DNA from: Paraprevotella sp.
GTDB lineage: Bacteria > Bacteroidota > Bacteroidia > Bacteroidales > Bacteroidaceae
Assembly (NCBI GenBank): GCA_021205005.1
Contig: JAJPYK010000012.1
Location: forward strand, 1-10,372
DNA: 10,372 bases
Reading direction: 5' to 3'
Positions 8,513 to 10,372 of the stretch are shown in pieces. Numbering within the stretch: position 1 is the stretch's first letter; every line of letters starts with the position of its first letter. Position numbers and translations under genes: made by a program. Below the pieces are notes generated by a model that was not told where the DNA came from, made no database searches, and saw only the letters and a program-made list of their open reading frames with translations.

Positions 8513-8543
8513 TTGGGAGAACCCACCGAAAGTAGTATCTTTG
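8513..8543 (+). promoter_or_regulatory. Bacteroidetes-type promoter driving the riboswitch RNA
   Basis: TTG at 8513-8515 and TATCTTTG at 8536-8543 are separated by exactly 20 bases, an ideal match to the Bacteroidetes -33/-7 pattern. Transcription should start near 8550, right at the 5' end of the riboswitch aptamer. No terminator is visible between the ABC exporter stop (8499) and this promoter, so read-through from nadK is also possible. Confidence 0.8.
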
Positions 8544-8550
8544 CAAGCGT

Positions 8551-8734
8551 AATAGGTGTCCGGTCTGCCTGTCGGCATTCCGGATGAAAAGGAAATCGGG
8601 TGCAAATCCCGGACAGTCCCGCTGCTGTGAAATCCTCTATGACGTATCAAAAAGACTCATGCCACTGCCTTTAACACCCATACATAAGGTCGAGAAGGTT
8701 TTTGATACGGGAATAAGTCAGAAAACCTGCCTAT
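8551..8734 (+). ncRNA. Cobalamin riboswitch aptamer
   Basis: The stretch contains the conserved parts of the cobalamin (B12) riboswitch in order. These are ATAGG at 8552-8556 pairing with CCTAT at 8730-8734 (P1), the ATCGGGTGCAAATCCCGG hairpin (8595-8612), CAGTCCCGCTGCTGTGA (8614-8630), GCCACTG (8661-8667), GAGAAGG (8692-8698) and the B12 box AAGTCAGAAAACCTGCC (8715-8731). A perfect 10-bp helix forms between GTATCAAAAA (8644-8653) and TTTTTGATAC (8699-8708), as expected for the arm enclosing the GCCACTG region. The aptamer looks complete, and the B12-box differences from the most common form fall at positions known to vary. Such riboswitches bind cobalamin in the leader of transport or synthesis genes and usually reduce expression. 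Here no such gene follows. Confidence 0.93.
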
Positions 8735-9009
8735 ACAAACGCGGTGTCTCGCTTCGAGGGTTAGGCGATGATTCCATTCTGATTCCGAGATTTACGCTCC
8801 GTAATCAGAGTCTGACGTCCGTCACAAGGATACATAACATTTATTTCCGGAAGGCCGAAGCGATTCGCCCGCGCATCCGCAATGCTATCTGCTATTCAAT
8901 CAATTGTTCGGGATGCAGAAATAAGTCACATCCGTGAGACCGGACGAACCAACCCACATTCGACCAATGCCGTCGGTAGGTGCCAAACCTTCGGGCGGCA
9001 TTGTTTTTT
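8735..9009 (+). ncRNA. Candidate small RNA body downstream of the riboswitch
   Basis: Between the aptamer and the first terminator I see no recognisable protein. Visible elements are a small hairpin CTCG-CTT-CGAG (8749-8759) that includes a purine-rich GAGG. Next is an ATG at 8768 closed by a stop after four codons, then a hairpin with arms TCTGATT (8778-8784) and AATCAGA (8803-8809), and a GCATCC/GGATGC pair further on. With the upstream promoter and the terminator, transcription would give an RNA of about 460 nucleotides consisting of aptamer plus this tail. This could be a B12-responsive regulatory RNA, or the leader and debris of a deleted uptake gene. The boundaries and function are inference. 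Confidence 0.4.
8965..9009 (+). terminator. Rho-independent terminator of the riboswitch transcript
   Basis: CAATGCCG (8965-8972) pairs perfectly with CGGCATTG (8996-9003). Additional inner pairing includes AGGT (8978-8981) with ACCT (8987-8990). A run of six T follows at 9004-9009. The reverse strand has no comparable T run, so this works for plus-strand transcription only. Confidence 0.85.
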
Positions 9010-9013
9010 CCAT

Positions 9014-9065
9014 AAACAAACTGTGCATCGATAGTCTTTTTCCTATCCATGCACAGCTTGTTTTT
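9014..9065. terminator. Long bidirectional terminator hairpin between convergent units
   Basis: Bases 9014-9034 pair with 9043-9063 over 21 positions with only two mismatches (9020 with 9057, 9029 with 9048), leaving an eight-base T-rich loop. TTTTT (9061-9065) closes it on the plus strand, and TTTGTTTA follows the stem on the minus strand. It can back up the terminator at 8965 and end the minus-strand surface protein gene, whose stop is at 9111. Confidence 0.85.
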
Positions 9066-9110: not shown

Positions 9111-10372
9111 TTACAGGTCATATACAGTGCTCTTCCAATCTTTGCCGACGAAAGTGCTCCATGCAGAGTTACCCTGCGCTGTGGTGGAGAGATGGTACGT
9201 ACATTGGCCCGCCGTATTCCCAAAACTATAACTTAATGTTTTCGAGAAATCAGCCGGAGGATTATCTCCTCCGAAATACACATCCGTAAGGGACGGGGCT
9301 TCCTCAAAAGAGAAACTACCGATAGAGGTAAGACGGGTACAGCCGGAAAAGTCTATGCTCTTCAGTGCGGAACAGTCGAAGAAAACCGACTTTCCGATCG
9401 TGGAGAGATTCGGACATTGGGAGAAATCGATTTTCTCCAAAGTGGAACACGACTGAAAAGCATAATCTCCGATGTCGGTAAGATTCGGAAGAGCGGTAAA
9501 ATCGGAATTCTTCAAACTCGTACAAGAGGAGAAAGCACTACTTCCGATAGTGGTGAGATTCGAACAGCCAGACAAATCTACGTTCTCCAAAGCAGAACAG
9601 TTATAGAACAGATCGGTTCCTAATTGGGATAGAGACGCGCAGCCCGAGAGATTCACGCTTTTTAAAGTACTAATACTTTGGAAAGTGCCTGTTCCGAGGT
9701 CCTGTATTTTCGGACAATAGGACAAGTCCAGACTATCCAAGGATGTGATATAAAACCCATAGTCTCCGATGGAGATAAGTCTGGGACTGTGGGAGAAGTC
9801 TACCGTTTTTAGATTTTCAGCGTAAGAGAAAGCGGCATTCGCAATATGGGAAACTGGCCCCGGGACCAATGTTTCTATCTGGGGGAAATAGCCATTCTTC
9901 CCATTGCCATTTAGAGTCAGTTCTTCCGCAGCGGTTGCCTGTGAAAGATCGAATAAGGTAAATGAATCATGGAAAGTCGTGGTGAGGCAATCGAGATCGT
10001 CTTGGGTCAGAGGACCCACCACATGCAGTTCGCCCGTGCCGGCCATCGCTTGAACTGGCAGTTCCGAATGGCTGACGATATCTCCCGCATTGATATAAAC
10101 GGTATGGGTCACAGGGTCGGCAAATGGAGGTGCAACTGCATTCCCCTGGTTTTCGGTCAGCTCTCCGCTCGTCCAGTCCTCCACCGTCACCTCACCCACG
10201 GTCATGGCGTCCTTACCCACGGTGAGAGGATAGGTGTAGCTCTTACCCGCCTCCATCGCGGGGATCCCTGTCACGGTGAGCGACTTGCCCTCTACGGTAA
10301 GAGTGAGGAACGCCTGTCCCGTCTGGGCCTCGGCGGGAATGACGAGAGCCGTATAGGTCGTGCCCGTCTGTC
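9111..10372 (-). CDS. Fimbrillin-like / BspA-type leucine-rich repeat surface protein, N-terminus cut by window edge
   Basis: The frame is open from the right edge to a TAA at 9111, giving 419 visible residues. The first 65 or so (YTALVIPAEAQTG, then LTVEGKSLTVTGIP, GKSYTYPLTVGKD and VEDWTSGE) look like the C-terminal strands of Bacteroidetes fimbrillin/Mfa-like proteins, which typically end in a VxxWxxG-type segment. A linker with an INAGDI to LFDLSQAT section, similar to what often precedes BspA repeats, follows. About eight leucine-rich repeats of 24 residues come next, then a cap rich in Ser/Thr ending STVYDL. Related proteins are lipid-anchored surface adhesins, but the signal peptide would lie outside the window and was not seen. 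A GTG at 10274 is inside the domain and is not the true start. It converges on the riboswitch unit. Confidence 0.85.
   Translation of the reverse strand, partial: QTGTTYTALVIPAEAQTGQAFLTLTVEGKSLTVTGIPAMEAGKSYTYPLTVGKDAMTVGEVTVEDWTSGELTENQGNAVAPPFADPVTHTVYINAGDIVSHSELPVQAMAGTGELHVVGPLTQDDLDCLTTTFHDSFTLFDLSQATAAEELTLNGNGKNGYFPQIETLVPGPVSHIANAAFSYAENLKTVDFSHSPRLISIGDYGFYITSLDSLDLSYCPKIQDLGTGTFQSISTLKSVNLSGCASLSQLGTDLFYNCSALENVDLSGCSNLTTIGSSAFSSCTSLKNSDFTALPNLTDIGDYAFQSCSTLEKIDFSQCPNLSTIGKSVFFDCSALKSIDFSGCTRLTSIGSFSFEEAPSLTDVYFGGDNPPADFSKTLSYSFGNTAGQCTYHLSTTAQGNSAWSTFVGKDWKSTVYDL
9273..9848 (-). repeat. About eight 24-residue BspA-type (LRR_5-like) leucine-rich repeats
   Basis: Units follow the pattern L-x-x-I-G-x-x-A/F-F-x-x-C-x-x-L-x-x-[IV]-D-[FL]-S-x-C-x-x-L. 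Examples are TTIGSSAFSSCTSL and STIGKSVFFDCSAL, followed by segments such as VDLSGCSNL and IDFSGCTRL. The protein period is about 24 residues, giving a 72-base period in the DNA. Unit sequences differ enough that they are old, diverged repeats. Cys recurs in most units, at the positions before the SL/AL and NL/RL leucines. Confidence 0.85.

Follow-up and report, generated by a model that had tools for sequence, protein, structure and literature searches.

A putative cobalamin riboswitch-gated small RNA in Bacteroidaceae with predicted pairing to the methylmalonyl-CoA mutase start

Known riboswitch-gated RNAs and the Paraprevotella locus

Regulatory RNAs gated by riboswitches are a kind already known from Listeria and Enterococcus. 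EutX of Enterococcus, the counterpart of Rli55, is an orphan cobalamin riboswitch RNA that sequesters a protein, and ANTAR-type dual hairpins carry hexanucleotide loops. RyhB, an iron-sparing small RNA that represses enzymes needing the scarce cofactor, is Fur-controlled and has no built-in aptamer; we liken it to the RNA described here in regulatory logic alone. In the accessible parts of one source (PMC8079631), Rli55 is described as an orphan cobalamin riboswitch with a regulatory tail, about 450 nt long and located next to the eut operon, whose ANTAR element captures the antiterminator EutV. The same text describes AspocR of Listeria monocytogenes, a 1,400-nt non-coding RNA gated by a cobalamin riboswitch and full-length without B12; encoded opposite its target pocR, it acts on a regulator and lowers B12-dependent metabolism, probably by base pairing in trans (PMC8079631). 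Trans-encoded regulatory RNAs of the Bacteroidaceae include GibS and MasB of Bacteroides thetaiotaomicron. GibS has a conserved single-stranded seed that acts at translation starts (PMC7366714), and MasB is a post-transcriptional regulator (PMC10994844); no riboswitch is described for either in the available parts of these two papers, and the words "cobalamin" and "B12" are absent from the main texts of three B. thetaiotaomicron small-RNA studies, these two included.

The window analyzed here is the whole 10,372-nt stretch of Paraprevotella sp. contig JAJPYK010000012.1. On its plus strand, positions 8513-9009 hold, in order, a promoter, a cobalamin aptamer, about 260 nt of gene-free DNA and terminators. 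Judging from sequence, we consider it quite probable that this locus encodes a riboswitch-gated, trans-acting, B12-sparing small RNA that represses mutA, the gene for the B12-dependent methylmalonyl-CoA mutase, when B12 is scarce.

The promoter (8513..8543) consists of TTG at 8513-8515 and TATCTTTG at 8536-8543, which we take to be of the Bacteroidetes type by its consensus; from its position, transcription is expected to start at about 8549. The pair TTTG/TTG...TAnCTTTG lies upstream of the aptamer in all eight Paraprevotella copies, and a sigma-70 scan of the window listed no promoter. The aptamer (8536..8748) matches RF00174 over its full length (model positions 1-189 of 189) at 72.3 bits, against a gathering score of 31.5, with an E-value of 1.2e-16; the model's first positions overlap the promoter. 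No second Rfam family was found within the RNA. Directly 3' of the aptamer lies hairpin 1 (8743..8775; loop UUCGAGGGUUAG), presumably the usual kissing hairpin of the riboswitch platform; comparable hairpins are visible by eye in other cobalamin leaders. A non-coding tail of about 190 nt follows. It contains hairpin 2, whose core GGCCGAAGCGATTCGCC (8853..8869) has a GNRA-type loop and is related to the terminator hairpin core of the Bacteroides RNA described below, and hairpin 3 (8873..8916), with a covarying stem and a loop that is the predicted target-binding site (predicted seed CTATCTGCTATTCAATC, 8885..8901). The intrinsic terminator (8965..9009) folds as a hairpin with a 10-bp outer stem (8965-9003) followed by six T (9004-9009); a simple terminator scan had no plus-strand terminator in its list, and the hairpin and T-run are visible in the fold. 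Behind it, at about 9014..9065, a second inverted repeat with a T-run can be seen by eye, probably a bidirectional terminator common to the next gene. That gene (9111-10370, minus strand) encodes a leucine-rich-repeat surface protein, BspA-like by eye, and is cut by the contig end; the locus's other neighbor is an ABC transporter gene.

The original prediction for this locus was made from the bare sequence and had much of this anatomy right: a full cobalamin aptamer, here confirmed by the Rfam search that it proposed; a promoter directly before it; a strong terminator with a second right behind; no credible coding sequence in between; and a next gene running the opposite way. Only a distance needs correction, since the terminator ends about 260 nt rather than 275 nt after the aptamer. 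Open frames of at least 50 residues in the tail either run through the aptamer or are without any support. The full RNA folds modestly better than shuffled sequences (3 of 100 as good; tail, 7 of 200), and most single tail pieces fold no better than their shuffles. By eye, window positions 8750-8756 in hairpin 1 (CGCUUCG) are complementary over 7 bases to 8856-8862 in hairpin 2 (CGAAGCG), as they are in the eight Paraprevotella copies if G-U wobbles are counted; this is possibly an alternative pairing involved in switching.

How does this locus compare with the known systems? By sequence, an aptamer and a putative regulatory tail would share one gene-free transcript in 8/8 Paraprevotella loci, the plan of a riboswitch-gated RNA. 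Ordinary cobalamin leaders of Bacteroidaceae and relatives have the same aptamer and, by eye, a similar hairpin right behind it, but in 15 of 16 that were read a start codon follows the aptamer by 47-271 nt, and in the remaining one by 460 nt; the Paraprevotella RNA has none. With AspocR the RNA would share the gating and the lowering of B12-dependent metabolism, but rather than lying on the strand opposite its target it is encoded apart from it (RNA on contig C304, mutA on C276), presents a short hairpin loop, and would target the B12-dependent enzyme itself. The likeness to Rli55 and EutX drawn in the original prediction stands for the logic, a B12-dependent pathway held back without B12, and not for the mechanism, because those RNAs sequester a protein and the RNA here appears to pair with an mRNA. 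The window's frames include no eut or antiterminator gene, and the tail matches an mRNA start. The loops seen in the RNA measure 12 and about 17 nt and are not hexaloops.

Conservation of the tail and a sister RNA in other genera

Searching with the window's DNA recovered the aptamer and tail in several relatives, and on reading all tail blocks were present in seven. R1, a covariance model of the tail built from the same eight sequences that it finds, detects the aptamer-tail unit, with scores of 68-104 bits, in 8 of the 18 genomes available for Paraprevotella; two more R1 matches in the genus, both weak, were covered by motif scan only. RF00174 was confirmed in all seven other copies. In seven of the eight genomes the RNA lies behind the same ABC transporter gene; G010 has it at another place. 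Homologues of the ABC gene occur in all 18 genomes, and those without the RNA behind them have no aptamer motif in about 1.5 kb around. None of the eight loci has an uptake gene directly behind the RNA, with only a few hundred bases left before the contig end in G013 and G017. In G010, four frames separate the RNA from a TonB-receptor-like frame on its own strand, about 2.3 kb downstream. Also in G010, the RNA adjoins, by eye, a divergent TonB receptor with its own cobalamin riboswitch and a LuxR-type regulator gene.

Among the seven genomes that have the ABC transporter gene in this position, identity is 70-84% for the protein and 37-59% at the gene's fourfold sites, except between the close relatives G013 and G015 (95% and 86%). 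In the eight genomes, 16 of 17 columns of the hairpin 2 core are nevertheless invariant, as are nearly all of the hairpin 3 loop. The stems of hairpins 1 and 3 covary by arm swapping: own arms pair at -12.0 kcal/mol against -8.8 for crossed arms in hairpin 1 (30 of 20000 permutations as good), and at -15.3 against -10.7 in hairpin 3 (21 of 20000). These permutations ignore the relatedness of the genomes, and the figures are somewhat flattering because two of the eight sequences are near-identical. RNAalifold on a MAFFT alignment of the tail gave no favorable covariation term (+0.17). By eye, a hairpin with a T-run lies 3' of hairpin 3 in all eight loci. The pattern of sequence change indicates that the tail is under strong selection. 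The original prediction had named an unconserved tail as a reason to abandon it and covarying helices as something to look for; comparison of the relatives yielded invariant blocks and stems that covary by arm swapping.

Several other accounts of the tail were rejected. It is not coding: the spacing between its blocks, 15-20 nt, shifts the frame between genomes so that no common frame survives, and the block letters are invariant at third positions. We also considered the end of a minus-strand gene, as the tail's CTATCTG resembles the end of an HU-like gene in the B. luti group; by eye, an early stop interrupts that frame in the window and in G017. Pairing of the hairpin 3 loop with the aptamer stem was discarded because the stem is altered in G008 and G017 with the loop unchanged (by eye).

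Weak R1 matches in other genera led to an RNA of the same plan in Bacteroides-type genomes (24 loci scanned for motifs, 8 read, 4 of which led to the Bacteroides family). R2, a model of this sister RNA's end, has 6 pairs changed on both sides, a number reached by 1 of 500 shuffles. Most sequences of alignment A3 came from a pattern search, and some of its invariance is therefore built in. R2 scores at least 46 bits in 40 of 399 genomes of the family, and 48 of 399 match at an E-value of 1e-4. Nine weaker matches (<40 bits) were left out, and contexts were read for the 40 strong loci. Carriers include Phocaeicola vulgatus ATCC 8482, P. sartorii, P. coprophilus, Bacteroides clarus, B. gallinarum, B. 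luti and B. propionicigenes. An Rfam cobalamin aptamer lies upstream of the R2 module in 40/40 and a terminator-like hairpin stands at the module's end; in 36 the aptamer is a few hundred bases away with no convincing gene between. In the other four (L205, L211, L213 and L215) it lies about 1.2 kb upstream, and the gene between resembles a vitamin-B12-independent methionine synthase (MetE-like; family models were run on L211 alone and matched below cut-offs, the others being assigned by similarity or by eye). There the module forms a 3' UTR, 24-30 nt behind the stop codon.

What lies downstream of the sister RNA varies: a BtuB-like receptor gene, tryptophanase, a convergent gene or nothing obvious. 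The BtuB-like gene is close behind the terminator in 7 of 16 Bacteroides-type records; six of the seven were checked, and their best NCBIfam matches are B12 receptor models, below cut-offs. Several Phocaeicola and Bacteroides genomes keep the RNA without an adjoining uptake gene. We rejected a BtuB leader as the whole story, since the module also ends transcripts before tryptophanase or a convergent gene, or sits behind the MetE-like gene. Tryptophanase follows in the same direction in L122, L128, L135, L189, L190, L193, L198 and L201 (family models run on L135, the others by similarity or by eye); read-through there might let B12 affect the making of indole. Several Bacteroides copies (e.g. 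L122, L128 and L135) have by eye a short open frame with a common ATG (GAGTCTAATG or close) just 3' of the riboswitch hairpin; when translated, this frame might give B12 control over the extent of transcription. At L209, L210 and L219, in the B. luti group, the module hairpin apparently also serves as the terminator of a convergent HU-like gene. The last codons of that gene look like the Paraprevotella loop (CTATCTG), probably by coincidence, and these loci have another cobalamin aptamer about 1.1 kb beyond.

Complementarity to the mutA start in two lineages

B12-dependent enzymes are what an RNA produced under B12 shortage would be expected to restrain, and we therefore read the starts of metH and mutA; the hairpin 3 loop had been defined before any target was read. 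For metH, no common site was found in 15 genomes with start codons taken by script, and a stray TGGCAG/TTGGC motif occurs in five of these starts, at differing places. The mutA start reads ...AATAAACT-ATGGCAGA... in 15/15 Bacteroides-type genomes (GATAAACT in G367; G226 included), and this stretch is the complement of hairpin A of the sister RNA (CUGCCA-AGUUUAUU), a single base being bulged out over the start codon. In 30 genomes, taken from the 40 strong RNA-bearing ones, hairpin A matches ATAAACT-A-TGGCAG of mutA in every case; ATAAA[C/T]T-ATGGC is present in 30/30, exactly as ATAAACTATGGCAG in 29. A flanking pair is kept in 29 of the 30 (22 A-U, 3 G-C, 2 U-G and 2 G-U, with one mismatch in G123), and none of 20000 permutations reaches 29, relatedness not being corrected for. 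RNA-target covariation is thus shown in Bacteroides and allies. In G020, the hairpin A stem is changed on both sides and mutA carries no matching change. When 276 Bacteroides-type start regions were ranked, the best 22 were all mutA, and the next, at -14.9 kcal/mol, is fairly close.

The Bacteroides-type match led to the prediction, made ahead of any inspection of the gene, that the first half of the Paraprevotella loop, CUAUCUGCUAUCAAUC, would match that genus's own mutA start. It does, and the second half matches too. Two stretches of the mutA mRNA can pair with the loop CUAUCUGCUAU(U)CAAUC, namely AUGGCAGAUAG around the start codon and GAUUGAUA close to the 5' end (the predicted seed facing the start region and GATTGA); the one extra T of the window's loop falls between the two pairing arms. 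Loop complementarity holds in 8/8 RNA-bearing Paraprevotella genomes, all of which have GATTGATA near the expected mRNA 5' end together with GCAGATAG in mutA, and ATGGCAGATAG at the mutA start, G000, the genome of the window, included. Their loop-mutA duplexes reach -15.2 to -17.5 kcal/mol, with 0-1 of 500 dinucleotide shuffles as good; for G000 and its own mutA the value is -17.5 kcal/mol (0 of 500). That mutA (L307) is interrupted by a run of 10 N after about 170 bases, and another ATG lies in frame 9 bases before the start codon that we used. A conserved single-stranded seed thus faces a conserved translation-start site in 8/8 Paraprevotella genomes and, for the sister RNA, in 30/30. The Bacteroides mutA site itself is absent from all 16 Paraprevotella mutA genes.

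How specific is the match? Part of it, ATGGCAGA, is coding (Met-Ala-Asp) and would be conserved anyway. Eight RNA-lacking Paraprevotella genomes have mutA: both sites occur in G002 and G006, the start site only in G003, and neither in G007, G011, G012, G014 and G016; G004 and G009 have no mutA. With the consensus loop, G003 scores -15.2 kcal/mol (0 of 500 shuffles as good) from the start site alone, and the duplex energy thus comes largely from the coding part. The presence of the RNA and that of the mutA sites follow the species tree. A set of 203 Paraprevotella start regions was ranked as well; like the 276 above, it was gathered from fetched loci only, with duplicates removed by the first 30 residues and the first in-frame ATG taken. 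mutA occupies the first five ranks, twice with the gene of an RNA-lacking genome (G002 and G006); the best non-mutA start, at -14.3 kcal/mol, is fairly close, and mutA of six RNA-lacking genomes ranks 31st to 184th. The G000 mutA is absent from this set, its frame broken by the 10 N run, and that of G003 is mis-started there.

A contiguous 16-nt antisense search of 18 genomes with up to two mismatches had missed mutA because the pairing is split. It returned 27 matches, 7 of them the RNA itself, and the 20 others compare with 10 for a reversed control. Of nine contexts, only the 3' end of trigger factor was common, to two near relatives, and contiguous antisense targets were set aside. There, 14 of 16 bases complementary to the hairpin 3 loop lie where an apparent trigger factor gene ends, with an apparent clpP downstream (L156 and L158), in G017 and G010 only.

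Two expectations of the original prediction can be judged here. A non-coding, B12-controlled RNA acting on another B12-related transcript had been called conceivable, and the conserved tail, covarying stems and mutA match in 8/8 genomes support it. The antisense match had been sought in the leaders of uptake genes; it lies instead in the gene of a B12-dependent enzyme.

Proposed function and rival explanations

The locus would produce a stand-alone, riboswitch-gated small RNA of about 460 nt. Cobalamin riboswitches generally behave in such a way that the full RNA would accumulate at low B12, and B. thetaiotaomicron cobamide riboswitches are described, in the accessible text, as repressing downstream genes with the vitamin present (PMC8941943). 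The simplest option is that B12 silences the RNA by premature termination; available parts of the literature describe such termination for Rli55 and AspocR (PMC8079631) and report cobalamin riboswitch termination in many Gram-negative taxa (PMC12121620). Hairpin 3 would offer its 16-17 nt loop to the mutA mRNA, encoded elsewhere in the genome, and form about 11 bp (one G-U) over the start codon and codons 2-4 and 5-8 bp at the expected mRNA 5' end, the mRNA stretch between the two sites being looped out. Translation of mutA would be blocked, and that of mutB behind it likewise, so that scarce B12 would not be spent on an enzyme that cannot be filled. For the Bacteroidaceae at large we hold it likely, though with slightly less assurance than for the Paraprevotella locus, that a riboswitch-gated small RNA serves as a B12-sparing regulator of methylmalonyl-CoA mutase, with its target kept, its pairing hairpin rebuilt (A to 3), and its module placed in a 3' UTR in some Bacteroides. 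B12 increases MutA and MutB in Xylanibacter ruminicola at both transcript and protein level (log2 fold change 1.3-1.7); that species has four cobalamin riboswitches, all of them away from the pathway genes, and the authors, in the text available, call the mechanism unknown (PMC11575231). This comparison concerns mutase expression alone, the RNA being known from sequences of other genera.

Real pairing could have another effect: mutA might be stabilized or activated, or its mRNA might act as a sponge for the RNA. The paired region takes in the expected mRNA 5' end and we infer the sign, repression, so there is some room for this; against it, the start codon is covered in both lineages, more of a B12-dependent enzyme would be of little use when B12 is low, and the X. 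ruminicola proteins rise with B12 in the accessible account (PMC11575231). We regard such an effect as improbable. Slightly less probable again is that hairpins 2 and 3 sequester a protein at low B12 in the manner of Rli55 and EutX. The hairpin 2 core, strongly conserved yet outside the predicted mutA pairing, would suit a protein ligand, but mutA accounts for the conserved hairpin 3 loop, and the window's frames hold no eut or antiterminator gene, nor the RNA a second Rfam family.

The original prediction had offered the loss of a downstream uptake gene as the simpler alternative, the riboswitch lingering as a decayed leader without function. Half of this finds an echo, in that a BtuB-like receptor gene closely follows the related leader in the 7 of 16 Bacteroides-type records and no same-strand gene follows the RNA in the window. 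It leaves the conservation in Paraprevotella unexplained, however: blocks stay invariant and stems covary despite near-saturated synonymous sites, the RNA is kept with no adjoining uptake gene in Paraprevotella and several Phocaeicola and Bacteroides, and the tail is complementary to mutA. A decayed leader is therefore very unlikely in our judgment. Least probable of all is cis-regulation of a downstream gene by terminator read-through, for which one could cite the relatives with a BtuB-like or tryptophanase gene soon after the terminator in the same direction and the distant TonB-receptor-like frame of G010; the window's next gene is on the other strand, and downstream genes differ among the five further readable Paraprevotella loci, the G013 and G017 contigs ending early.

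The B12-sparing reading would carry consequences for a central pathway, as methylmalonyl-CoA mutase is the B12-dependent step in the production of propionate, a main product of gut and rumen Bacteroidales. If it is true, B12 and the mutase are linked directly by an RNA that is its own B12 sensor and base-pairs at the mutA start; a cobalamin riboswitch controls a trans-encoded base-pairing RNA across several genera of one family; and the hairpins with which sister genera pair to one common target are different. No riboswitch-gated RNA that acts in trans by base pairing on the B12-dependent mutase was found in the full-text literature, a scope outside which most subscription papers and bioRxiv lie.

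Other cobalamin riboswitches of these genomes were noted in passing. The window's genome, a 2.29 Mb assembly that is 82% complete, has four that we found, and the other three, judged from sequence, lie upstream of a biotin carboxylase and two TonB receptors. Elsewhere in the family (L001, L013, L015 and L016) they stand before biotin carboxylase and apparent anaerobic ribonucleotide reductase genes, positions that, as far as sequence can indicate, fit a wider response to B12 shortage.
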